From assembly GCA_037893245.1 (NCBI GenBank), contig JBAIAA010000415.1, forward strand, positions 186,001-250,000: 64,000 nt of DNA. Direction: 5' to 3'. The stretch comes from Crossaster papposus. Lineage: Eukaryota; Echinodermata; Asteroidea; Velatida; Solasteridae. Position 1 is the first letter of the stretch. Each line of letters begins with the position of its first letter. The notes under the pieces were generated by a model. It had not been told where the DNA came from and made no database searches. It saw only the letters and a program-made list of their open reading frames with translations. Made by a program: the position numbers and the translations under genes. Of the stretch, positions 776-44,900 are shown one piece after another.

Positions 776-3378
776 TTGAACAAAAACAAACACTAAGTTT
801 AATTAGACTACTTACAGATACTATTTCGACGGAAGGGTAGTAACTTGTTAATGCGGGTTTCTTTTAGTTGTTTAACGAGTTCTGGTCAAGCGACGCTCAC
901 TTATTATTGTCAGCCGCAATCCACAAACGCGGTAAACTGTCAAAGAAATTGTAAACACGAAACCCGCTGTTAAAGCAATTTGTTGAAAATGACCACAAAT
1001 ACGGCAAGTCTGGCTAATTCGACACCCCCCCCCCTACACTTGGATACTTTTTGGGTATCATTCGATACACCCACCGTATGACCAACACACCATGCGTGCC
1101 GATCCCAGGCCACGAGCGGGCCCCAGCGCGCCGCATCACGGCCCCACACCCCGATCGTGTTCCACTGCCGTGTGTGACTTTCCCGTGGACTTGGCGGCGA
1201 TGTCATCGATACAACTCGCGTGTCTTGCGACCGTGTTGTATAGACGTAGCAGTGAAACTAATGACGCTTACTATCGGATAGGAGATATAGACAGAAATAA
1301 AAATAATAATTGGAAACCGAAGCCGTGATAGGCGATACTCTCCCGACCTGGTAGAATAATCAACATGTATATGGGAAAACAAGTTTTGCAAAATAAACAA
1401 CATACACCTCACGACTTTTATGTATTTCATAAACTAAATCATACGAAATCGAAAAGAGCATTTAAAAGTAGGATATAAACATCTGCACAATCATCCTTTA
1501 AAAAATGTGCGTTTTTGTGTTATTATTGTGTAGAGTTTCTGAGGTCGTTTTTTTTTACACCCAAAACTCAAGCTTTTTGGGTGTAGTCGCGATTCCATGA
1601 CAACGTACCAACTGCTTTCTGGCAGATATACCTACAGTGGCATGGAACCTCAATACACGAGGCTCCAATACACTGCTGTTTTTCTTGAATGAGAAATTAC
1701 CGCTGCCTGTCTTTTTCAGAGCCCCCCCTTTTATTTCCTCCAAATGCATCGCCCGATCACCTATGTATTGGGGGTTGAGTTGCCCAGCGTTGCACCTTGT
1801 TACCTTGTCAACAATTCTCATTTCAGGTGTCATCAGGACACGACCGACATCTGTAAATATCTGGCGGGCATTTGACAGTCTCCTCCACATTTGGCCTAAT
1901 TGTTTCCACTAATCACGAGAGGGAGATGCTGTAGCCTTGTTTCGTGGGGACACGGGTGTGACAATGATGGGCCCACACAAGACGAGAAAAGACTAAACAT
2001 GGACACCTGTGATTAACGAGGGGTTAGGGTTCCTTGAAGTTAGGGCGTAGCAGAAGTTTTATTATTAACATCATTATGTAGATAACTATTCAATTTTCAA
2101 CAGTTACCAGAAGTCCATAAACTAAGAATTTGTAGGCGTTTCTTTTCATTTTTTTTGGTTTTGGTTTTTTTTTGGGGGGGGATTTTAAATTGTTTTGCCA
2201 AAACCAACTAAACAAAAATACTTGACCAATGCCCATTAGTGAGCTGAACCTCACGTACTATAGGTGGTCAAAATACGATTGGAGCTTGTGATAAATGTAC
2301 ACATCGCAAACTTGGTCTATACAAATATTGCCACACAATAAAACTCAAAATATTGTTCTTTCCCTTTAATATTGAGGCCGCATACAAATTAACGACGTGT
2401 CGTGGTATTCTCTATTTGTTATTACTTACTGTGACAGTAGGTTTCCGTTCAAAGCTCAAAGAAAACATTAAAGTGAACTTATGATTTTGTCGAGTTTTGA
2501 TGTCATTGTAAGGCATTGTTTCAAACTGGATAACAGCTTTGAAGAAGAAATCAAATAAGTTAAGAGGGCCTAATATTTAGATCTTAACAAGATCTTCTTC
2601 AGAGACTAAATGGCTGTGTACAAGAAACAAACATATATAGGGCAACATACAGCATGATGCTCACCATGAAAGCTGAAGAAACACTTTAAGAACAGATTAC
2701 AATGGAACACACAACAAAAGGAGGATTAGGCTGAGGGATTAAAGGGTGAGGTCAGTGTGGGTAGGATCAAAGGCAGGATAGGAACAAAAGCAGAAGGGGT
2801 AAAACCACAAGGAAGGGGGTCCAGGGTGGAGATCAAAGGGAAGAACTAACAAAGAAGTATGAATAGGAGTAATGTGGAGGGGGGGGGGGGGGGGGTTTAG
2901 TAAAATAGACAGGGAAAACCAGAGGAGTGAAAACAAACAAAAACAAAATTCTGGCAAGGAATGAATCTGAAACAGATGACAAATGGAGAACAAATTATAA
3001 GTTAATCATTTCCTAGTTGGATGTTAAGCCCATGTGGTTGAATAGTCCGAAGACGATTCATCCAAGCTTTGAAGAAGAGAAGAGTTTTGAAGGATAACAT
3101 AAAACAGTATCAACGATTTGTTTTAATAACATCTAAAACTAATCTCTTAAAATGTCAAACTCGTTTACGTGCCGAACTTCACTGAATGACGTTCAGTGAA
3201 ATGTAAACTAATGTCTGTAAACAAACACTGCAACCCGACAAAACGTCCTACGCGCACGTACGTGTGGGCAGCTCTGCGCGATGTAAATAAACAACATTCC
3301 GAAACGCTCCAAATAAAACTCCCCGGTAAATGACAAGTGCTCGGATTGTGAGCTGTGGTCCGCATAAGAAGCAATAAT
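776..3378. other. Region without an assignable gene
   Basis: No exon of the CUB gene and no recognisable protein lies here. A GC-richer patch at about 1060-1240 gives short overlapping ORFs on both strands with no known motif. At 1555-1914 the minus strand is open for about 120 codons beginning near MWRRLSNARQIFTDVGRV; I do not recognise it and cannot tell whether it is a decayed exon or chance. Short simple runs occur at 1025 and 2880. Confidence 0.4.
2545..2605. repeat. Copy of AAGTTAAGAGGGCC repeat
   Basis: The stretch starting near AAATAAGTTAAGAGGGCC and reading through ATCTTAACAAGATCTTC recurs in the palindrome at 15498-15616 and in diverged form at 54232-54292. It is a dispersed short repeat of unknown class. 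Confidence 0.6.
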
Positions 3379-3380
3379 AT

Positions 3381-3520
3381 GGGACGGAGAGACCCCCCCC
3401 CCCCCATCCGTTGTGGTGGCCATTGTGCTTGCGAGATGCTGTGGTTTCTTTTATTGTTGTTAGGGGGGTGCGTTAGGTAACAATAGTCTAGAGAGTGTAT
3501 AGGAGGGACTAAGGGGGAGC
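3381..3520 (+). repeat. Dispersed repeat with GGGACGGAGAGACC head
   Basis: This block runs from GGGACGGAGAGACC and a poly-C tract through GTGCTTGCGAGATGCTGTGG to GGTGCGTTAGGTAACAATAG. Other copies are at 14188-14390 (inverted), 52535-53060 (interrupted) and 61848-62030. The class is not known. Confidence 0.65.
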
Positions 3521-3857
3521 ACTGACCTCTACACCTGGACGGACCATTGTCCATATTCTGCCGTGCTAACGCTTGAAGTCGGCGCGAACGAGAAGTGCAA
3601 CTTGGCAGACCCAAGACGTCACTTCTGTGAGCCAATGAAATGTCCAGGTGTAGAGGTGAGTGGATTTACTCCGTACATTTTTTATTTATAAACATTACGT
3701 CATACATACCGTACCCACTGACCTCTACACCTGAACATTTTATTGGCTCACAGATGTGATGTCTTGGGTTCGCCATGTTGCACTTCTCGAGCGCGCCCAC
3801 TTCAAGCGTTAGCCCATCGGAATGGGCGTTGATCCGTCCAGGTGTAGAGGTCAGTGG
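3520..3857. mobile_element. Inverted pair of 145-base elements with CACTGACCTCTACACC ends
   Basis: Two related units, 3520-3663 and 3715-3857, lie in opposite orientation around about 50 bases of AT-rich spacer. Each unit is bounded by CACTGACCTCTACACCTG and its inverse, and both contain the CTTCAAGCGTTAG type core. They look like short non-autonomous DNA transposons. Transcripts across the pair could fold into a hairpin. A poly-G run follows at 3860-3880. Confidence 0.7.
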
Positions 3858-5479
3858 GGGCGGGGGGGGGGGGGGGGGGTCGTTTCATATCTTGCTAGGT
3901 ATAGTGGTCTGAGTGCTCTGGGCCAAATTTCATAAAGTTGCTAAGCACAACAAAATGCTTAGCATTAAAATTCGTCCTTGGCAAAATCAGGGTTCAAAAC
4001 CAAATTATCAGGTTACGTATTTAGTGTTTGTAAAAACAACTTTTACTTGGCATGAAAAGCACTTGGAGTTCCGGCTGGTAACCTGTTTTTACTGAGCAAG
4101 AGTTTGTTTGTCAGGCTAAGTAAATTGTTGTGCTTAGCAGTATATTTTGTGCGACCTGTAAACTTGAGGTCATCAGTTCCGGGGCCCAGTTAGCTACACT
4201 GCATTAAATTCGAAAGGTCATGGTACGAGAACGCAGTGAGTTTTCTTCACATTAATCTGCAAAGCGCACATTAGACCCCTCCAGCCCCTAATATGGGCGC
4301 TAGGCACGAGCGAGCTAGCATTCGACAGTAAATTCACCCAACTCCATAATTAACTGAAAAACGACACGAGTCTTTATTCATCACAAAAATATTTGATTAA
4401 TTTTATTCATTTTCCATTCATTAAAGGCACAAGTCTAGTACTAAGGCACAATAAACGGCAGAGGGCGCTACATGTGTTATATTAATACAATCGGCAGCAT
4501 GCTGTCCGCGTAAAACAAATCTCCACGTATTTCATTCTCAATTCATTTATAAATCGTTCATTATATCTCTTAGCTATTTATTGTAACAATTAATATTGTA
4601 ATCCTATCAAATCCTAAAAAAATTACGACTGAGACTAAGTTAACTATAAAACTACCAAACTTTGACTAAATTACATGAAGCGACAGAAACATGATACCAT
4701 TCATAAAATTACTTCAAGATTTCAATATGGTAATTTAATTTCTTGAATACATTCTTTTATTAAAGATGAAAGCCTTTTTTTATAGTGAATCTCAAAACAT
4801 TAAAATATACAAACGGGGGAGGAGGTATTTTAGGTTTATAAAATCTGCCCGTTTACAAAGTTTCATCAACGTGTATACAATGTACTGGGATTCGACAAAA
4901 CTTGGGAACATTTTAACGTAATCGTTATCGTACCCAGTATACGAATTCCACCCAACCAGTACAGCGCCCTGAGAATGTGTATAAAGAAATTGTGAAAAAA
5001 AGCACAAGGCGCGCAAAGCATTATGATTAACTTGCTGCCAATAAACGTACATTCAGCGCACACGTGACCCGCACACACGGCTCTATGGTCCATTGAGAAC
5101 TCGAATAAATGACGTCATGCACTCAGCAGAAATGAGTCATTCCCAGCGCGCTGTTTTGGGCGGTACGGGACAAGAGCAATGTTTGAACAGACAAGTTGGG
5201 CATGTGATATGTAAAATCTCGCAGCACTCGCGTTATACAGTGTCTAAACAAAATGCAAACAAAATATAACGGAATGCCACACGTAAAATGGGTAACATTT
5301 ATAGATGATAATACTAATAGGTATGTTTGGAAAGATACACTTAAAATGCGACAAAAAAACCGTCACAATCCGATATTTTGATATAGTAATTTCCCAAACG
5401 AGGTCAAATTAACCATTGGACCAAGATTTCAATTTTAGGTATTGGACAACGAAGGCCTACTTGCTTATATTTGGGTAAT

Positions 5480-5850
5480 TGCCTGGGCCTATAATCATAA
5501 AAACCTGCTAACTTAGCAGCCAACTAGGCCTTAGCAGCCCGCTAAATCCGTAGTTTACTGCTCCGTGGTTACCAACTAATTTTGTATTCATAAAACCTTG
5601 CTAAGAATGTTGTTACCAGTTAGTTGACAGCTAGATATTTTAGGCACGCAGCTGGGACATCAGGCAAGTTGCCACTTAGATACACCCCAGATCAACTCTA
5701 ATGTTAGCAGTTAACTTAGCAACCAACGAAGCTTAGCAAAGTTTTAAGAATATCACTTAGCTTCCAACTAGGCTTAACTGTCAACTAGAGGCCATTTAAG
5801 CAGCCAACTAGGCTTAGCAGGCTTTTAGGAATATCGGCCCTGGCCTATAA
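5480..5850. repeat. Degenerate CTTAGCAGCCAACTAGGC repeat
   Basis: Variants of CTTAGCAGCCAACTAGG recur irregularly here. Related TAAGCACAACAA-type sequence is found at 3920-4140, 36420-36830 and 51312-51912, so this is part of a dispersed family. Confidence 0.5.
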
Positions 5851-6619
5851 GTTTAGCACAAGAATGGGTAGTGCTTAGCCATTGAACATTGATGTTTAAG
5901 AATTTGACACGTGCGTTTAGCTGCTTATCACAAACAGCTGCTTATCACAAACAGCTAGTCCACATTGCTACACTTGCACATCCAAACAAAATCGAAAAAC
6001 TTGGTCCCATGGCCAATTTGACTTCTCTTGGGAAATTACACACAACTCTGTCAAATATTCATCAGATTTTAACGTTTGATGTCTCATTATAAAGAGAAAA
6101 GATGTTGGTTACACATTGTCTATGTTAGACTCGCTGCAGTGTCAATCATACAGGCTGGAAAGAACGATATGTCAATAAAGGATACTTGCAAGATTAAACT
6201 GAATTTCGTAAAGTACGATAATTATATGCAGCAATTCGTTTTTACCAATTTGTGTGAAATATATAAAATACAAATGTGTAATGACTCATTAAAGTTAGTG
6301 CATCTACTCTGAGTATATTGGTTTAAAAAACCCACAAATATCGTTAAACGCAAGATCAAATATTCACTTCAAAACTCTGAGTATCTTATAATTGTACCCT
6401 TCATTTCATCTCGTTATCTGTTATGCATAAACACGACGTATGAATATTTTCTGAATACTTTCTTTGTATTTTACTGCTAACTACTACAATGCTATATATG
6501 CTAATTAGATCTAATAATTCTTTAAAATTCATTTGGAATATTTCTTGGCAATTTGTTTTGTTTTTGTATGTTGCTAGAAAATACAGAAACAGGAAAAATC
6601 TATTATATTTTCTACTTAA

Positions 6620-6947
6620 AAGGTAGGATACACCATTTGCAGATATAGACAATTGTTACTACCGAATTATTAGGAAATATCTTACTTATTTAAAAGTACA
6701 TAATGATTGTAAGGCATCCAGCAAAATGATTGCGCTAGATATTCTGTAATTGTTTCAGAAAAAAAAACCAAACAAGAACAACATTAGAACAACTGCCCGA
6801 CGCCGGTTAAAAAAGGACGCCATTTTTTCTCTCGCTTTTCTCAGCATCCATGATTGTAAAACTTCGGACAAAACAGTTAAACGATATTTACTATAAAATC
6901 CACCCATTCCTGATTATTCAAGAAATTACCAATGGTGTATCCTACCT
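6620..6947. mobile_element. TTAA-flanked short inverted-repeat element, copy 1
   Basis: The element starts AAGGTAGGATACACCATT and ends AATGGTGTATCCTACCT, with TTAA on both outer sides. TTAA duplications are typical of piggyBac-type and Kolobok-type DNA transposons. It has no coding capacity. Further copies are at 12213, 19400, 50553, 51349 and 54448. Confidence 0.85.
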
Positions 6948-7673
6948 TTAACAAGGAATGTTATCGAAATAAGTACTGGATAAGTGAGTAAAAAACTGTT
7001 TTATATATATACACATATATTTTCTGATTTGGTTTGTTTTAGTTTTGGTAAAAATAGGCATTGGTCATCATGGCATGCAGTACTGGATATAGAGTACTAC
7101 TATTTCATTTTCATTTACATCTAAGATATACCAGAGTTTAATAAGGACAGAAACCCAGATATTTCAAATGGAAAACTAGTAAAGTGTCACGAGAAAAAAT
7201 GAAGATGTCGGGTCAACTTTTTGCCCTGTAAACTATAGCAAAACTATAGCAATTACAGGGAATTTCACATGCCGAATGCCTCGTTACATTACGTTAGCAT
7301 GGCCTTAACCGGAATCCGATTTGTAATGCAGAAATATATCTGGATTTCTCTCAAAAGCATATAGATTGGAGGGGACTAAAGATTAAACTCAAATTTAATG
7401 AATCTGCTAGAAAAAAAAGAAAAGAAAAAACATTAGCACAGATATAAATTTGGAATGTTATTTACAAAGAGTTGATATGTGATACAATCACAAGGCGATG
7501 TCGCCCTAGCGAAGATTGCGAGTACCTAGCCTGTTCAGAGTGTGATTTAGAGCAGGAGGAAGTCTGGATGTCATGTGATCAGCTCTCAGCTGTTTCTGTT
7601 TTTGGCCGACAACAGTAATCAGCTTGGCCATGTTCTGTGCTTAGCAGCTCTGTTTTGCCCCCGAGGGTGCCCG

Positions 7674-8040
7674 GTGCCATTGGCCGCCCGAGGCTGCCAT
7701 TGGCCGCCCGAGGCTGCCATTGGCCGCCCGAGGGTGCCATTGGCCGCCCGAGGGTACCATTGGCCGCAAGAGGGTGCCATTGGCCGCCTGAGGGTGCCAT
7801 TGGCCGCCCGAGGGTGCCATTGGCCGCCCGAGGGTGCCATTGGCCGCCAGAGGGTGCCATTGGCCGCCAGAGGGTGCCATTGGCCGCCTGAGGGTGCCAT
7901 TGGCCGCCTGAGGGTGCCATCGGCCGCCTGAGGGTGCCATCGGCCGCCTGAGGGTGCCATTGGCCGCCTGAGGATGCCATTGGCCGCCTGAGGATGCCAT
8001 TGGCCGCCTGAGGGTGCCATTGGCCGCCTGAGGGTGCCAT
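7674..8040. repeat. Minisatellite, 20-base unit, about 18 copies
   Basis: The unit reads TGCCATTGGCCGCCTGAGGG, with point variants (CCCG, CCAG, CAAG) grouped along the array, so neighbouring units are most alike. Because 20 is not a multiple of 3 and the unit has few stops, all frames stay open on both strands and give spurious ORFs. Confidence 0.95.
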
Positions 8041-8471
8041 TTAATACCGACTAGTATTGTCGTTCAGGAACAATAAGAATCTGTCCCGTCTGGATTTTAC
8101 AAACAGCTAGTCATGCTCGATTGACCAGTAGCCGATACCCCTTGCATGATTCCTGGGAGTAGTGCAGTGTTAAAACCGGTTTATACTTCACGTCAAAGTG
8201 AGTGCGATACGAATTGGACGTCACAAAGCCTTCACTGCGAATATTTGCCAAAGTTGAAATGTGTTTGACTTTCGCGAATTCGCAGCACGAAAACTTCCCG
8301 TGATGTCACAAATTCGCGCCAAGTATGAACGGGGGCAATAACCATCAAGCTTAATCCGGCATTTATTCCGTATTTTTTTTGTTTTTTGTTTTTAAGAAAG
8401 CACCCAAATCTCTAAAACACCTAAATTACAGTTAAACCTCTTTTGTTTTTCTTCAAAGTGAACAAAGAAAT

Positions 8472-11918: not shown

Positions 11919-14900
11919 CTAGGACAGTAAAATAAAAGGGGTTCACAGGTCACGGGCGAGGCGTACCACGAGCCAATTTCTTTGAGCCGCTTAACCAGTT
12001 CACGCCGGGTTTATTTGATTACCACTGGCAGGATAAATTTGTTTTGAAAAAAAAGTCGTTGTTTTTAGTCAGTAAAATATTCCTGTTTTGATAAATGCAA
12101 CTACTACAAGATGCCAACACTTATTTTATTAGCACCGTTATTTACATGTTTTTGCCAACATTCTGTTGCCTAGGACATTTTTTTCTCATTAGGCATTTTA
12201 CGTTTAAATTAAAGATAGGATACACCATATTGGTAATTGCTTCAATTATCAGGAACTAGTGAATTTGGGGGGTTGTATTTTATAGTAAATACTAATGGCG
12301 TTCATTTTCAACTGGCAGCACGCAGTGGTTCTTATGTTGTTCTTGTTTTTTCAGCCATTGTGAATTTTCTTTTATAAAATTCAATTTTTTCGGGAAAATT
12401 ACAGGATATCTAGACTAGAGCAATCATTTTGCTGGATGCCTTCAATCGTTATTTACTTTCAAATAAGTAAGATATTTCTTAATAATTCGGTAGTAAATTT
12501 TTTTGATATCTGCAAATGGTGTATCCTACCTTTAGAAATATGTGACCTGGCACCACGAAATGGGTGGAAAGTCGCAGAATATAAAATTTGACATTATTAC
12601 ATTTCTAGAAAGGAGAGGTCCAATAGCTTTCAAGTGATGTATTGTGTGTTGCTGTAGCTTATTCCTAGGCGCCGCTATACTCTTTTGAAATTAATGAAGT
12701 CATGCTCCCTTGTTTTGAGAAAACAGAGTTCAAATTCCGTGAACCGTGCCAACTATACTATCACTCGGTGCAATTCAGCCACAACAGAGTTTTAATTGAG
12801 CTATACAATTTTGGGATATGATAAAGAAGGGTTTGTTGTATCTAAAAATGTTAACAACTCGAAATCTACCTCCAACTTGAAAAATGGACGTTTCGGCCAA
12901 TAACTCGTTTTGGCTATGTGCGACTTTCAGCTCATTTCGTGGTGCCAGGTCACATATTTAAAACAAAATTAATTGTTTAATATATTTTTTTTAAGCACAT
13001 CACAAACGGAGGTGGGCAGATTACTTGTCAATTTGTCAAAGCAGAAATCAAGCCCCACTATTATTTGAATGATCCTCTGGAATACTAATGGAAACTGACT
13101 ATTAGATTCCTCTCCCAAAAATAAATTTGGAACACGTACCTGACGAGATAGTGCTGGAGGTGTAAGTCAAGTCAAAGCCCGCGTAGTTGACGGAGGAGTC
13201 GGTGACAAAGTTGAGGTAGACGGTATTTGCAGGGAGGAATACTGGCTCGGGAATGTTATTACCACAGAGCGTGACCAACACCGGGGCACTATTAGAGCCA
13301 TTATAGACCTGCAGAGGAATATCAACCCCAAAATTGAGTCTCGTTCTATGCCACTTTAGTATCTGAATCAACAATTTGAACATGATTGTTGTTGAAATGT
13401 TCCTCAAAGTGTTCTTTGCTAACACAATCTTCAATTCATTAATACCCGAGACAGTTTACCAATTCCTAATGGTCAAGAACCAGTCACGTGGCAGGTTTTA
13501 AACCGCTGGTTAAACACCGCTGCATTCTGTGCCTCGTTGCGCGCTATGTGCCACGTGCACGGCAGTGCGAGAAACGTACAATAGACATAAGCAAAAGTAA
13601 AATTGTTGATTGAAATTGTTAGAAATAAATATGTGCTTGCCTCTTAGCCGGTTTTAAACACGTAAATTTAAAAACTGGCTAAACCTGGACATTTGCATTT
13701 TTAAGTTTTTTCTTTTTCGGAGCACAAACAAGACAGATTTGAATTTATACATTTATTCGTCAAATGCAAATTTTTAATGTAAAATCACGACTTCAAGATA
13801 AAACCGCTTGGTTCTCGACGCTAACGGTCAGTTTACATCACCTCGACGCAAATTCCATCTTGAAAATAGTTTCTTTGCGATACCCGCTGCTATATCCGAT
13901 TCAAACCAGCCGCAGCCAACCCTGGCCAGCTCGATGGTCGAGTGGTAAGACGTCTCTGCACTACAAAACAGGAGGTCTTGGGTTTGAGTCACTCGGGGGC
14001 AACACCGAGTATACAGTGTTTATAACAAGGCGGTTCTCGAACCACGCGTCTCGCCTGTTTTTGCGATTATCCCAGAAGATCACCTCAGTATGTGGCCTTT
14101 ATTATCACCATCACATGCAAGTTCTTATATTGCATCTATGACCCAAGTTGGATTGCAATTGAACTTTAAGTTCTCAAATTATACCCAGCAGGGACCTAGA
14201 GACCTAGGGACTCCCACCTTAGTACCCCATACCTCTACACTCTCTAGACTATTGTTACCTAACGCACCCCCCTTCCCCGCCCCTCCATCCCCTAAAAACC
14301 TAAAAGAAAATCCAGATAAACCACAACATTCCGCAAGCACAATGACCACCACAAAGGAGTGGTGGTTCACTCCGTCTTATTATACGCTTCAAATGAAACA
14401 TACGCTTCAAATGAAACCAATTTTACAATTCCAGCCTGTTACAACTTGACCTCAAGTGACCTTTTACATTACCATCATATAAAAGATACAATATTGCATT
14501 TATGACCCAAGCTTGATTGAATTGAACTTCAACTTCGACTTTGCATATAAGCCAAATTTTTCGAAACTTTAACCAAATTGTAACATACATTCGAACATGT
14601 ATGTTTGTTTATGGTGTAAATCGAGGAGTTTCTTTTGTTCCTCTCGATAATTTCCTTTGTTTGTACTCTAACTTTTTCCGACAGTTCTCATTGGTTTTGT
14701 ACACGAATCTCAATCGAGGTAGTCCTCGATTCTAACCCTAACCCCAATTCACCTTCGTGTCGCCAGGAATGTGTCCTCCATTTACACCATAAACAAACGC
14801 GGAAGCACAGACGGACAGACAGACTATGTACACACTACATACAGAGTTAATGATAGCATAGTCTCTTTTACTGAACGTCGTTCAGGCGAGACAAACAACT

Positions 14901-35900: not shown

Positions 35901-38900
35901 ATAATAATTAATCTAATTAACGAATGGGCGAATTGGTCCTCAAGTGCCCTTTTGCGTTTTCACAAAGAGGCGAATTCGAAATAGCGTCGACTTTAACGTG
36001 TTTATGAAGGGGCACTTTGGTGACTTTATTGTTTTCACGAAGAGGCGAATTGGGCAGGTACTGGCTTTTAGCGTTTTCACGAAGAGGCAAATTTGGGGCG
36101 CAGTGGGAAAATGAATACATTCTGACTCTCACAGCCACGGGCGAATTTGCTAATGTATCGTTTTTTCGTTTTAACGAAGAGGCAATTCTATTAATTGATT
36201 AATTCTGCAAAACTAATCACCTATTTTTCTTAACGTTTTCTATATTTAAGAAGATTGAAATCTCTTCTTTCCCATGATACCTTAATTTTGTATATTCTAT
36301 GGATATTTATGTTTCAAACTGCCAAACAAAAAAAGGAAGAACTTTACAAGCGATTTTCTTGAAAGTTTGTTCAGACCGTGAAAGGCTCAATTCGCCTCTT
36401 CGTGAAAACGGTGACGATGTAAGCTAAGAAATTTGCTTAGCACAACAAAAATCTTGCTCAGTTAAAAAAAACAGGTTATCAGCCAAAACTTCATGTGCTT
36501 TTCTTGCTAAAGAAAAACCAGCTGAATACCAGTCACAAACAATAAACAACACCTGAACATTTGGTTTGTAAGCCCTGGGCCCAATTTCATGGCTCTGCTT
36601 ACCACAGTATTCGGCGCTGACAATCACTGTTTTGCGTTAATAGCGCTAGCAAAACAAATTATGTGCTAATCCTGTAAGCACAGAATCCTTAGTTACAGGA
36701 TGTATGCATATGCACAAGCCATAATTCCCTGCTAAGCACAAGTTTCCTGCTACAGTAAAGCAGGGATTTGTTGGTAACGATAAGCAGAGCCTTAAAATTG
36801 TGCCCGGATCTTTGCCAACAAATCTCAAATTTCAGTAACTTTGTTAACTTTGATAGGCTAGCAAACCTAATCTTTTGCTAATTAAAATGGCATCACTTTT
36901 TTGTTGCTTACAAATGGACAGTTCCATAGTGTCGGGTGTACAATTCAACAGTGTGCATAATAACAGTTATTATCATAAAGTTGACTAACCAAGATGTTAG
37001 TGTCTATTATTAAGCTTGATAAGTTGATGACAAGCAATGACAGGCTTTAAAGTAATCACAATTTACTGGTAAAATAGTACATTTTCAGTCGCTACGCCAC
37101 ATCTCCTGTCACCAAAATTGAGCGTACGAGTTATGCCCAAAAATAATGCACAAGTCGCGGACTTACTCAGTATCAAAATTCACACGAAATCATTATAATG
37201 CTAAATGTACCCTTAAGGAGACAGTTTGAAAGAGAAATATTTTTACTGTCGAAACAGTCTAGATTGATAGAGTCCAAAATGTATAAAATCCAAATTTTGT
37301 GGAAAAAAAAAACAAGGGAAAAAAGGGTTACGTTACAGTAAAGTAAAAAAATTGTGTGCACACGTCTATAGAGATGTCTCCCAAATGATCCATCGAAGGT
37401 AATTATTATAACTGAAATTGTGAGAGAGCACATTTTTGTTAAATGTATTACAATTCCTTTTACCTGCGTAGATTTCCAGAGCATCGTAGCGACAGGTGGT
37501 TCCGCCAGCCTCAATGTCGAAACCCACGTCAAAGCTCATATAGAGGGAGGTGTTGACCGTGACCTGGTTGGTTAACAGCCACTGGCAGTTCAGGTTGTTG
37601 GTGTAGTTGAGGGCGCTATAACCGATACTGGAGAACGAGCCTGCGCTGCCGGGGTTGAGGTTGATGAGGGCTCCGCAGACTGGGAGGGAGTGAGAGAGGG
37701 AGGGAGTGAGGGAGGGAGGGAGGGGTTTATTTAAATAAAACAAATACAATTTAGTTCGGATATCAGAGGACAATAAATAGTGATGTTTATTTCTGTTAGG
37801 ATCTAGGCCCTTATAATATGTGACCCGTTCCATCGAAACAGGAATAAGTCTCGAAATGACTTTTTGAGATATCCACCTGGTGAGAAAGGAAATTTCATAA
37901 GCTTTCTAATGATACCCATCATAGGTGTTAACGAGATAGTTAGGTTAACAAGATATGGTCTGATGAAGATGACAGGTGTATATTTATTTGCCGAATCCAC
38001 ATTCCGAGAAAAAAAGGTTTGAAATAAACAAAATTGACCAAAATCTTACGGACAGCGCACACAAATCCTCTCCATTTTCATCTTTATTGATCGTTTTTAC
38101 ATACAAGACATTTATGACAATAATCTGTGATAACTACAATTCCTAAAAATACAATGTTCATAAAAACGACTTAGTCACGATTTTTACCCATGCGTTCACT
38201 TCAACGACCGATTGCGTAAAACGGCCCCAGCAACTTATTCCTGATTACAATTGAGCAGGTCACATATATCACAGGGACATCACAAGTCATGTCACTAGTA
38301 AATTACTGATCCATTATGATTATGAGGAAGAAAAAATGCTGTCATCGCAATTTTGTTGACTTGTGGCAGCTCTGCGACGGCCCCTGCGACGGCCCCCGCG
38401 ACGGCCCCAGATTTGTAAATCATCCCCAATGAACAAGTTGTATCTTCAGCATTGTTGGATCCAGTTTATTTCTACATTGACCGGACCACGGCACGGGAGT
38501 GTTTTTCACAAACCTCGATCCGAGACGGGTTCAGGCCGGCATCTGTGGGTAGCACACCCTTATAGTGGGGCGGCTTAGCTCCAAAAAAAAGGTCGATTGT
38601 GCACTTTCCCTTAAAAGCATGAAACTTGGCACATAGTTAGAGTAACACAATACAAGGATTTTTAGTCCAGGGGCCACCGGAAATTGCACCCCGTATGGCG
38701 GCCATCTTGGATTTCAAAATGGCCGCCATTGTGGATCTGTTTTGTTGAATATTTCCTTAACTGGTAGAGATATCGAGACAGTTGAAACGCCTATACCCAC
38801 ATTTTAGGGGTCTAGGAAACCATTGGTGACATAAAAGTTTGACAATTTTGGCCGCCATCTTGAATTCCAAGATGGCCACCATCCACGAGCTATTTTGCTC

Positions 38901-41900
38901 AATATCTCATGATTTTAAAATTTTAGAAATGAGATGGCACTATCCCATTAATGCCTGGATTACATTTGCCCCGGGCGCCGTACGATAAATTAGTCTACGA
39001 TTATTCGTAGACATCGTAGGAGGCTACGGGCTACGATGTTTGTGTTTACATTATCTACGAGCATCGTGCCATTTATTGTATTGGCCCTCGGGGGCAGGCC
39101 GGGGCAAATCCGTACAGAGGCTGCTCGGAGATTGTACGGAAATCGTGCAATTTGAATGCAGTAGCCGTGGAGTCTTCGCAGCCTCCGCACGGAAATCGTA
39201 CGGAGCCCGTGCAGCTTCCGTGCAAAGGTTGCCGCGGGATGACTGCTCCATATCACGGATACTGCACGGGCAGCGAGCAGCAACCTTGCGATAGCTGTGC
39301 AATGGCCGTGCGAATGCCCCATGAGTCTACAATCTCTGTACGATTTTGTTTGCCCCCATGTTCACCGAAAAATCGTACGTTTGCTGCACAATCAGTGCGA
39401 GGGCTCCGGGCGATGCCCGTGCGGGAATTGTGCAATGCCACCTACGACATGTATACGGGCTACGGGCTTACGATTTTTTCAAAATTGTTTAACTTCTCGC
39501 GAAACAAAATCGTAAAGGCTGCGGAGCCCGTGAATCCGTACGAAAATCTCACGGCCGCCTCCTGCCTCCGCACAGAGGCCGCACGGAAAAGGGGATACGG
39601 GCAGGATACGGGCTCCGTAGACTAATCGCAGGCCAAATGTAATCCAGGCTTTAGTGACACTCCCTTTCTCTTGACTTGTTTTGGCTTAAAATTGGTTTTA
39701 AGCATGACTTAGTCTTTGCCGGTTATGTCCAAATTAAAATGTATATTGGGTGGACATAAGAGATTGAGTGACTTTAGTTGGTTGGATAATCAGATGTGAT
39801 TAGAGGTGCGAGCAGAGGATTATGTTTACAAATCCTCTTGATAGCAATAGCATGCTTTCGTGCCTTGCTGTAGCACTCGTCAGTTGCAAATGGGTGATTC
39901 AAAAAGAATCGAAGCTGACTCGCAGAGAGGTTGTGGTTGGGATTGGGTATATTCCAATCATGTAAGTTTGGATTGAGCCATATGTTTGTTAGTCGGTTTC
40001 AGATTGTTTCTCCAGTAAGGAGAGCAATATGTTGAGGGTTTCGTCTGGTTCAGTAGGTTGTTCGAAAAAGCCAGAGTCTGTTGGGAGTGGTTCGAGCTTT
40101 TGCTTTTGATTTTAGAAATGAGATGGCACCATCCCACCCAGCGACACTCCCCCTCTCCCGACCCGTTCCGGCCCAAAATGGACCCCAAGCATGACCCAGT
40201 CTTCGCCGGCTACGTCCAAACCAAAATGCACATTGGGCGGACACAAGAGACTGAGCGACTCCAGCCGGTTGGACAACCAGATGTGACTAGAGGTGCGAGC
40301 AGAGGACCACGTTTACAAACACCCCCGACAGCAACAGCATGCTTTCGCGCCCCGCTGCAGCACTCGTCAGCTGCAAATGGGTGACCCAAAAAGAATCGAA
40401 GCTGACTCGCAGAGAGGTTGCGGCTGGGACCGGGCACACTCCAATCATGCAAGCTTGGACCGAGCCACACGTCCGCCAGCCGGCTTCAGACCGCCCCCCC
40501 CCCCCCCCAGCAAGGAGAGCAACATGTTGAAGGCCTCGTCCGGCTCAGCAGGCTGCTCGAAAAAGCCAGAGTCTGCCGGGAGCGGCTCGAGCCCCCGCCC
40601 CCGCTGTGGCAGCTCAGCTTTCACCAACCTCTCCCGAATGCTCTGGGCCCCCTCGAAGGCAACAAATGGAGGCCTCGTAAAAAGCTTTGAGAGCACCCGA
40701 CTGCCCTCGATCAAGCTCCAGTGCCTGCCCACCGCTCGACACATGTCACCGCGATCCATGGCTGAGCTGCAGGTGGCTGCGAAGACAAGCGGAGCCCGTC
40801 CTGCTCCCTCTCCATCCCCTGCGCCGTGCACCAGTCTCGATCGGTCGGCACGTGAGACCCCGGCTGCTGCCGCTCCGACTTCACCTGAAGTACAGCCTCC
40901 CGTGGTTAGCCTCTCCGAGAACACCTTGACTCCGCTGCGGAAACCATCCGCGCTGCCGGCGCCCCCAGCGCAGCGGAGCGCCTCCCCGCACATGAACGCC
41001 TTGAAAATACGGGGCGGGCGGGATGATGCCCCACGGAGATACTGGAAGGCCTCCGCCGGCCCCGTGCAGACCCCGGCGTCCAGGACTCCTGCCCCATGGA
41101 AACGGTCTCCTTCAAATATGGTCAAGTCAAGGTAGCCGATTGATGATTCAGAGGCCCCGCATGCAAACCTTAGAGTTGGGCGCATACCGCACACCTCCGC
41201 GACGAGACTCCGGATCTTGTTCAGAGCTCCGTTGCAGATGACCAACATGTCGCCTCCACAGCGCCACCATGCAAAGATGCCACCCGCCCCCTGGACCACT
41301 TTGCCCTCGAAGCCGTGCAGGGCGACGTCACAAATTTCAGGGCCTGATGCGGAGCCTACCGCACAACCAACCCTCCGGAGAAAGAACCCACTCCCGAAAC
41401 GGAAGCAGCCGCGACCGAGGATGAGTTCCAGAAGCCCCCGGATGCAAATTGAAGGTGGTTCCGCGACTGGGCGGCAACGGCCTGCGCCCTCGAGGGAACC
41501 GCAAACACATTGGACCACCCCGCCCGTCGGACACCGGTGCACATAGAAACAACATCCATACTCGCGACCAGGACATCCCGCGAAAAAATGTCCCTCCTCC
41601 AGCCCGCGCAAAACGTCCGCCGTATCGCGGACACATGTGGGCCGCGCGGCCACTATGGGAAGAAGGAAGCAGTCTATGCACTCTGAAACCCCCGCCGGAG
41701 AGCCAGTACAACCACCCACAATTGGACGTCCAACAAAAGGCTCCCCCGGTGGCGGTGCCCCGCGCACCTTGGGGAGAAAACACATGGCCGGACACTGACA
41801 GCTCCGCAGAAGTGGGCCGAGGCACCTCGAGAGCATCGCTGCCGATGCGCCTGCCGCCTCTCACCTCCACGAGTGTGCCGCGAACCATCGCAACAGTTTG

Positions 41901-44900
41901 CGGGGCAACACCCCGGTCCAGCTGGGCACAGCGATGGGACTCAAGGCAGCGGCAACCCACCCGTAGATAATCCGAGCGGCCCACAATGCAAATGCCCCCG
42001 CCCCGCCACACGGCTCGACCACGATGTCAGGACCGTTCCCGAGTCCACCCATGGCGGACAAATCCCGCGCGGTTACGTCCGCCCGCCGACTCCCCAGCCC
42101 GACACGGGCCAGCTCGAACCCAGCGGCCTCCAAGCACTCTTCCAGCGTTGCACCAGGGGACGACTCACGTCGCCAGCCCGATGGCGGCCCGAAAGGATGG
42201 CCCCTGGAGCGCCCATCACGCACCAAGAATGCAACTCCCAGCCTTCGACTGAAGGCACTCACGCCACCTACAAGCACCCCGCGGCCCGGCCCAGCAGGAG
42301 CAGGCACGAAACCTAAACCCCTTCCCAAAGCAACTGCTTCGGTCCGCGACAGTGCCGCCCCGGATAGGCCTGCCACGAAGGACCGGCACCGCTCCGCCAG
42401 CAAGCGCAAATGACTGGAGCCGGCTCGCCCGGCTCTCGATCTGCACCCGCCCGAGAAACGGCCAGACCTCGACCGACCAAGCGATCCCTCAGCTTTCCCG
42501 TCGAGTTCTTCTCCCGCCACGGCAGCCAATACACCAATGGCCCGGATACAACAAACAATGCAAGATGGGCTACATTCCAGTTCATTTATTACAGCCACCA
42601 TACAATAATAAGGGCAAGATGACGGACCCACCTCCCCCGAGAAGGCGTGGCAGCCCCGAAAAGGACTGCTCGGCCACGCAGTGGTCAGAGATCGGCTCAG
42701 GGCTGTCGCCCCCTCCCGACGCCCCCGTTGGGCCGACAGGGTCCCGTGAAGAAGCTCAAGAGCCTCCGAGTGGCAGATGGTCCCGACCCTGGAAACCCCC
42801 AGCAAGCCCTTCCTGCGCCTAGCGTCCGGCGCCGGCGAGCCGGTCCCCGGCGACTGGCAGCCGGTGCGTGCACCCCTCCAGCGAGATTCCCGCGAACAGC
42901 AACGATGCTCCCCTCTGGAGACCGCTACAACGATCCCGGAACGAACCCTGAAACTTCAGAGATCGGCGCAGATGCGGCGGCCGCACGTCCACCGTGATAC
43001 AAGGTGGCGGCGTGCCAGCCTCGACCGACCGGGAAAGGAGCCGCACCTGGCGGGCGATGCGCTCCCCGGCAGCCATCAAAGCGCTGACGCCTTCCGCCAG
43101 GAACCTCACTCGTTTGAACCCCTCCTCGGACAGTCCGCGCGAGAACGCGGCCGGCCCGGTTGCCGATGCAGATGGGCCCAAGTCCAGCTCGCAGGAGAGG
43201 AGAAGACCCCTAAAACGTGGGTATAGGTGTTAAAAATGTATTGATATCTTTACTACTTCATGAGATATTGAGCAAAATAGCTCGTGGATGGTGGCCATCT
43301 TGGAATTCAAGATGGCGGCCACAATTTTCAAACTTTTATGTCACCAATGGATTCCTAGACCCCTAAAATGTGGGTATAGGCGTTTCAACTGTCTCGATAT
43401 CTCTACCAGTTAAGGAGATATTCAACAAGACAGATCCACAATGGCGGCCATTTTGAAATCCAAGATGGCCGCCATACGGGGTGCAATTTCCGGTGGCCCC
43501 TGGACTAAAAATCTTTGTATTGTGTTACTCTAACCATGTGCCAAGTTTCATGCTTTTAAGGGAAAGTGCACAATTGATCAGCTAAGCCGCCCCACTATTA
43601 TATTTCTGGCCTCACTCGCTGCGAGCCGCTCGCTCACAGATATTTCCGGCCTTCCTCACGACATATTTATCTGCCATCCGTTTTGAATCCTGGATAAACT
43701 TTGTGTGTATACACGTCATCCGACGCGAACCGGTTAAACAATTAGAGACTATTGCATACATATTTCATACATTATTGCACAAACATATCTATTTCCATAT
43801 CAATTCTCTTTGAACATTTTATGTCCCAATAATGTAAAGAACAACTAGCCACTCCAATGATAGGTTTGTTAATATTAAGTGTTTTAAGTACTGCCTGAAT
43901 CTCTTTTCATTTGACAGAATAAAACAAATGCTACAATGTTGCGTCAATGATTTTCAACTTGTCGTAGGCAAAATACTGAAAGCGTGTATACACGCAATTT
44001 TTTTTAACGGAATTCAAAAACAGATGACGAATAAACACGTCACAAACAAGGTCCGGAAATATCTGTCAGTGAAAAATCAGTGTGTGCTACCCACAGGTGT
44101 CAACCTGAACTCATCTCGGATCGAGGTTCAGGAAAAAAAAATCTCGCGCCGGGGCCCGATCAATTTCACAATAATTCCGGCACGAATTTGTTTAGAATCA
44201 CTCTGATCACGATTCTTACCGGCAGGATCCTGGGAGTCGTACCGTGCCGAGAAGCCTCTGAATGCCACGCTGCCATCAGAGTAGAACACCACGCGCATGG
44301 TATTGGTGGTGGAGACCAAACCCTGGGGGGGAATGTTGCCGCAGTGACGACCCAGGCTGGGGGCGTCAGACGTCAAACCATTGAACACCTGAGGAAATTA
44401 GTAGATTTAAAGATATTACATGTAGTTGAGAAAAAAACTTAATAATTGTGACTCGGCAAATGTTTTGGTAGTATACACCATTAGCTTTTGATGTAAATAT
44501 TGTGACGCTGACATATTCATAGATGCTGGGAAAAACTAAAAAATGTAATGCAGATTTTGTAGTCTTGTACTTCCTTCAGACAAAACAGAGCAAAATATAG
44601 ACGTCCGGAAACTATCAGGTTAGGAAACCAGACTAGATGTCTGGCACCCATTAACAGATGTGTAACAATATTGCAAATAAACTAAATTTAATGAATAAGC
44701 CATTTGCGAGTTAACATCAAATAACATCTGGTACACTGCTTAAAATGCTTGGTGCGTTTTAACTTTGAATTCCCCAGACTAAAGACACTGTTGCTATATC
44801 ACATGATTCGGGGCAAGCTCTTGCATAGTTACGTAAGAGACGCTTGGCACCAATACATTGTTCACAATGATTGAGAATTTTACAAAGACACCAGACCATT

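Follow-up and report, generated by a model that had tools for sequence, protein, structure and literature searches.

A strand-specific A-to-G scar in a Penelope-like retroelement of Crossaster papposus, probably left by RNA editing and multiplied by a DNA transposon

Introduction

Hyperediting of repeat RNA by ADAR has been reported across Metazoa, with clusters of A-to-G changes, depletion of G 5' of the edited sites in both animal groups examined, and Penelope elements among the targets; in a lizard, one such element is massively edited in its RNA (PMC5625713). Those edits lie in RNA transcribed over an unedited genome. Here we describe the same three traits in heritable genomic DNA, in a reverse-transcriptase (RT) element, classed below as a Penelope-like element (PLE), which lies in a stretch of 64,000 nt from Crossaster papposus (assembly GCA_037893245.1, JBAIAA010000415.1, positions 186,001-250,000, forward strand). 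This whole stretch is hereafter called the window.

The locus also resembles, and departs from, three other described systems. In APOBEC 'DNA editing' of retrotransposons (PMC2873906), genomic retroelement copies likewise carry clustered deamination of one type, but those scars are G-to-A changes made by a cytidine deaminase on cDNA, whereas the C. papposus element shows sense-strand A-to-G in an ADAR-like context. Partial tandems of Penelope-like elements have been described (PMC3846280, PMC11167929). One of them, Pen2_Av of Adineta vaga, consists of a longer copy and a 5'-truncated copy (PMC3846280), an arrangement also found in the window, and the unedited family forms tandem arrays elsewhere in the same genome; unlike in Pen2_Av, the longer copy here is hyperedited and no longer has its catalytic motif, and the pair sits inside a DNA transposon. 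That enclosing carrier resembles DNA transposons with terminal inverted repeats (TIRs) and 3-bp target duplications in its ends, its duplications (34 of the 36 copies that could be scored) and its many near-identical copies, but its cargo is an edited retroelement and it is known by its ends and duplications. A search of open-access literature by titles and abstract starts found no report of a genomic ADAR-type scar in retroelement DNA. ADAR editing and deaminase scars are each known, but, as far as searched, their combination on this scale in heritable DNA is not.

Results

One-directional substitution in the element

An initial annotation of the window had proposed A-to-G hypermutation of the element on the minus strand, which is its sense strand, after comparing it with an adjoining shorter duplicate. 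The change is confirmed, far beyond chance. With the ragged alignment edge dropped, the window's own pair differs by 96 A-to-G, no G-to-A and 4 other substitutions, and 60 A are retained (100, 2, 8 and 62, respectively, with the edge kept). Made over 36 element copies, that of the window included, this comparison sums to 3209 A-to-G, 9 G-to-A and 188 other changes, the rows being related copies and not independent events.

As the reference for the main spectrum we used an unedited array copy on contig C1227 of the same genome (3271 bases read), the genome searched throughout being the window's own (1.02 Gb, 1841 contigs). Against this copy the edited element shows 834 substitutions, of which 683 are A-to-G, 13 G-to-A and 138 of other types; the mixture of substitution types that the initial annotation had named as refuting its reading is not seen. 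At A sites of the array copy the edited element reads G at 683, A at 382, C at 11 and T at 15, and approximately 64% of sense-strand A sites are now G. Other classes are small (C-to-T 44/805, T-to-C 31/647, G-to-A 13/404, remaining types 1 to 11). Editing is even along the ~3 kb, since each of the 19 full 150-column blocks holds 24 to 44 edited sites. The longest run containing A/G differences alone covers 125 bases, in which 28 of 51 A are edited. The unedited duplicate is 91.7% identical to the array copy, with A-to-G at 6 of 156 A sites and 6 G-to-A changes. A scan of the window for A-to-G-like composition placed its top 300-bp window at 42201, inside the edited element (score 0.293); the runner-up, at 14201 (0.287), is G-poor rather than T-poor.

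APOBEC editing was rejected, in agreement with the initial annotation: its direction is wrong, and G-to-A affects the 13 of 404 sense-strand G sites given above. Another source of adenine-specific change would be a mutagenic reverse transcriptase. Diversity-generating retroelements employ a reverse transcriptase with adenine-specific infidelity, and an adenine-specific change adjoining an unchanged copy is what such an enzyme might leave. Here, however, the product is nearly always G (C at 11 and T at 15 of 709 changed A), the RT gene itself is covered by the changes, and one event only is seen, so that we hold this explanation to be extremely unlikely.

Editing also altered the coding capacity of the element. 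The two protein-level effects that the initial annotation had reported are both present: the stop TAA of the duplicate (39989-39991), said to become TGG near 40476, does so at 40476-40478, and within the YxDD motif of the polymerase Tyr-Arg-Asp-Asp reads Cys-Gly-Gly-Asp. TAA density drops from 19.7 to 2.3 per kb through editing. Frames of 700-928 codons are open in 12 of 40 carrier copies (in the window 40445-42805, minus strand) because editing removed TAA and TAG. TGA has persisted, which the low editing after a 5' G would predict. The long frames in edited copies are by-products of editing.

Unedited relatives and identity of the element

A protein search of the genome with the edited frame returned 92 rows, 63 of the edited type (73-100% identity) and 29 at 49-55% identity. 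The further copies thus sought by the initial annotation include unedited relatives that support the A-to-G direction, but the mutated copy is not a single one. Most rows at 49-55% identity have long open frames and several stand in tandem arrays (C1227, C653, C48, C297); the spacing of the C1227 array, 4256, gives a unit of ~4256 bp for the unedited family. Another PLE-type family, ~50% identical, is arranged in tandem on C630 (2351611, 2355653, 2359698) with a spacing of ~4045 and frames of 707 codons.

The unedited protein matches Pfam RVT_1 (3.7e-10, residues 73-229 of the 461 aa searched) and holds WWRYRDD, where the edited frame reads WWRCGGD; the catalytic motif is gone from the edited element. 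A Pfam scan of the edited frames matched no family, though the frames are open. In a search of solved structures the best hit (E 0.00093) covered 44 residues of CpcN, an unrelated chain, and no stretch passed alone; in a further search it was a retron RT (E 0.21). The motifs KIHKTPPP and YLH..SSHPP are ones that we take to be Penelope-like. On the basis of these motifs, the arrays and the partial tandems, and not of a tree, the RT element is classed as Penelope-like. The partial tandem of an edited copy and a truncated unedited copy is present in 40 fetched carrier regions. Three pieces of the unit scanned against Pfam gave no match to a GIY-YIG endonuclease, with ~1 kb of the unit unread and no examination aimed at this domain.

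Neighbor preference and ends of the edited tract

In order to determine the context of editing we used 938 A sites with clean neighbors, 593 of them edited. The 5' neighbor has a strong effect (chi-square 143, p ~1e-30): editing reaches 115/139 after T (0.83), 292/386 after A (0.76), 149/269 after C (0.55) and 37/144 after G (0.26). The window pair alone gives an unchanged order (T 22/25, A 47/64, C 23/45, G 7/26). T>A>C>G is the full 5' preference order of ADAR, and the disfavored 5' G, which the initial annotation had put forward as a check, is there. The 3' neighbor has little effect (p 0.015), with editing at 0.71 before C, 0.63 before G, 0.61 before A and 0.57 before T, and adjacent sites are uncorrelated in editing (lag-1 r 0.02). 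Editing sets in near the 5' break at 43203 and ends ~20 nt short of the 3' end: none of the six A among the final 19 bases is edited (p ~5e-4 under context rates, for an end picked after inspection). The carrier inverted repeats that flank the PLE copies are untouched by editing.

The same 5' dependence bears on the direction of change. The window's pairwise comparison by itself gives no direction, and the GC-rich state might be ancestral, with the AT-rich copies altered by C/G-to-T/A deamination or by mutation bias. Read as G-to-A, the changes do show a 3' dependence (46/157 before A, 132/200 before T, 210/300 before C, 291/401 before G), in which the neighbors are themselves edited letters. 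The 5' dependence, however, is sharp when read as A-to-G (0.83 to 0.26) and nearly flat when read as G-to-A (0.60 to 0.69), and the copy with YRDD and an RVT_1 match is the unedited one, while the GC-rich copy has CGGD and no Pfam match. The GC-rich state, for which the initial annotation had left ancestry open, is derived when set against the C1227 copy, and the chance of the reverse is negligible.

The initial annotation had offered two sources of the scar, ADAR-type editing of the element RNA and an adenine-directed mutator acting on cDNA. The first fits better. First-strand cDNA editing would read as T-to-C on the sense strand, and T-to-C shows no excess, standing not above C-to-T (31/647 and 44/805). 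A rival would be an adenine-directed process on DNA, either while reverse transcription was under way or later, which might for instance have acted on second-strand cDNA in its sense strand; sense-strand-only deamination of DNA would leave the same final pattern. The neighbor order fits RNA editing by ADAR instead, and the adjoining unedited copy and the inverted repeats are untouched; we consider a DNA process unlikely.

The carrier transposon and the spread of the scar

Multiplication of the edited copy, and the transposon that carries it, were missed by the initial annotation. In each of the 40 fetched regions an inverted repeat is followed by the duplicate, then the edited copy and then a second inverted repeat; some regions have internal deletions or degenerate ends. 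The carrier termini are TAGTGGGG and CCCCACTA. Equal flanks of 3 bp occur in 34 of 36 scorable copies, of 2 bp in 7 of 36 and of 4 bp in none of 36. From its inverted repeats and 3-bp target duplications we classify the carrier as a TIR DNA transposon. The inverted repeats were also considered as PLE pseudo-LTRs, and this was rejected: they have no match to the PLE array pieces L058 or L059 (~1 kb of the PLE unit being unread), and the 3-bp duplications are found in 34 of 36 copies. The window copy is 5035 bp long, versus 3630-4551 bp for the remaining 35 in the alignment.

Across the edited part, the 36 aligned copies differ from the commonest base by ~1%. Among the 683 edited sites, 529 read G wherever data exist, 661 read G in at least 90% of copies, and one reads G in fewer than half; among the 382 retained A sites, 348 read A in every copy. 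Later mutations in the edited part, counted by column, are G-to-A 183/1162, C-to-T 160/850 and A-to-G 10/404. Because the edited sites are shared and the later mutations are ordinary, editing preceded amplification of the aligned copies and has now ceased there. Therefore, the copies are read as the product of one editing event that was then amplified. If the carrier copies were instead edited independently, in repeated or ongoing episodes, one might expect them to differ, and they do vary in identity to the duplicate (72-80% in the main rows), with 9 of 382 retained sites reading G in 10% or more of the copies. The varying identity, however, tracks differing aligned lengths and internal deletions, the edited sites are common to the 36 copies, 22 copies agree in every letter of a 35-bp stretch that contains 14 A sites, and A-to-G is among the rarest later changes. 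We find independent editing very unlikely. The spread of the edited element is best put down to transposition of the carrier, whose structure was seen in the 40 fetched regions and is assumed for the other edited-type rows.

Several carrier loci have features of their own. At L032 (C130:205300-215299), positions 927-8305 hold two carriers head to tail, the right end of one abutting the left end of the next (CCCCACTAGTGGGG). L037 and L040 (C152:1381200 and C152:1283900) are carrier copies ~97 kb apart with identical flanks, which suggests a segmental duplication. L022, L024, L026, L028 and L030 have a common internal deletion (~235 bp of the edited part), and form a carrier subfamily. Matches to the carrier repeat stand with no adjacent edited-element row at C1000:267988, C380:120272, C164:614388, C14:113297 and C520:603462; these five loci are perhaps carriers with other cargo or none.

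Search for a second editing event

We searched the genome with a 35-bp test site in which each of its 14 A was written as A-or-G, allowing up to 2 mismatches. This gave 259 matches, 100 of which were listed individually. The 59 mismatch-free matches comprise 36 wholly unedited, 22 with the exact edited form of the window, and 1, on C499 (L048), that is of the edited type yet has A at one TA site. When G was required at the four TA sites, 44 matches were found, all at known edited-family places; for 22 of these 44, identity in every letter was established. A second editing event was not seen at this test site, a search that covers the PLE family, that copies edited at other sites would escape, and that did not include a divergent row on C361. 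A single event only would mean that passage from editing to DNA is a rare process, or that its products are lost.

Layout of the locus

Coordinates of the features are collected in Table 1. The initial annotation had drawn the duplicate as one piece, 38911-40107. An unedited copy is indeed present there, but a repeat of ~700 bp (~38948-39652) has been inserted into its 3' UTR and splits it, a repeat not seen in the other aligned copies; the duplicate proper is ~38918-38947 plus 39653-40107. The 30 bases from ~38920 are the same as the 3' end of the array copy L058, and the initial few bases of the severed piece may belong to the carrier. Elsewhere in the window, positions 7501-8000 are 64% GC in AT-rich surroundings.

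Table 1. Features of the locus (positions in the window)
Feature	Position	Strand	Remarks
Carrier DNA transposon with terminal inverted repeats, as classified here	38563-43597		encloses both PLE copies
Left terminal inverted repeat of carrier, TAGTGGGG...	38563..38912	.	unedited; flanking 3-bp target duplication TTA
Extreme 3' end of unedited partial PLE copy	38913..38947	-	severed from remainder by inserted repeat
Inserted repeat, 26-bp inverted ends	38948..39652 (boundaries approximate)	.	outside edited element
Unedited 5'-truncated PLE copy: ORF end, stop TAA 39989-39991, 3' UTR	39653..40107	-	
Hyperedited, 5'-truncated PLE	40108..43203	- (sense strand)	
Former stop codon TAA, now TGG	40476..40478	-	
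Former polymerase YRDD motif, now CGGD (TGT GGA GGC GAC)	41249..41260	-	
Right terminal inverted repeat region of carrier, ...CCCCACTA	43204..43597	.	unedited

Discussion

Proposed origin of the scar

The direction, context and single origin of the changes suggest a path from RNA to DNA. We think it very probable that a single sense PLE RNA underwent hyperediting by ADAR, was reverse transcribed and inserted, and was then multiplied by a DNA transposon. Sense PLE RNA would have paired with antisense RNA to form long dsRNA, on which a host ADAR would have converted A to inosine at ~64% of sites of the sense strand. The genome encodes ADAR deaminase domains, with 16 matches to PF02137 on 6 contigs, each above the cut-off. 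A reverse transcriptase, most likely that of the element itself, would then have read inosine as G, and a 5'-truncated product would have been inserted immediately upstream of an unedited, likewise truncated copy with the same 3' end. At its 3' end the edited copy directly adjoins the unedited 5'-truncated one, and the compared part has 4 other differences. The tandem pair could have arisen in one insertion with a template switch, unedited RNA being copied first and then the 3' end of edited RNA; two successive insertions would fit equally. The pair now lies inside the TIR DNA transposon, and the scar was multiplied as this carrier later transposed.

On C979 (267053-348180), the beginning of the ADAR deaminase domain is matched by five short, nearly identical stretches, perhaps a multiplied exon.

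Several points weigh against this origin. A downstream A preference has been published for invertebrate and amphibian ADARs (PMC5625713) and is not clearly reproduced here, where C is the highest 3' neighbor. The case is built on genomic DNA. The T>A>C>G order to which the data were compared is general background. At 9 of the 382 retained A sites, 10% or more of the copies read G. Finally, one event only was found, and 215 of the 259 test-site matches do not fit the edited-type pattern.

Implications

With 683 sites and an intact neighbor rule, the scar indicates that retroelement RNA containing inosine can pass through reverse transcription and be inherited. The spread by a DNA transposon illustrates how an edited sequence with no working catalytic motif can reach high copy number, and the long by-product frames, of up to 928 codons, can mislead gene finders. 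The scar also offers a search signature for any animal genome. Whether the sense or antisense strand serves as template for Penelope-like elements has been discussed and left open (PMC3846280); the scar would record the RNA strand that served as the PLE template. It is conceivable, though we think it doubtful, that ADAR-hyperedited retrotransposon RNAs are regularly written into animal germlines, that ADAR thereby acts as a hypermutating defence like APOBEC3, and that the edited strand marks the PLE template, which here would be the sense strand.

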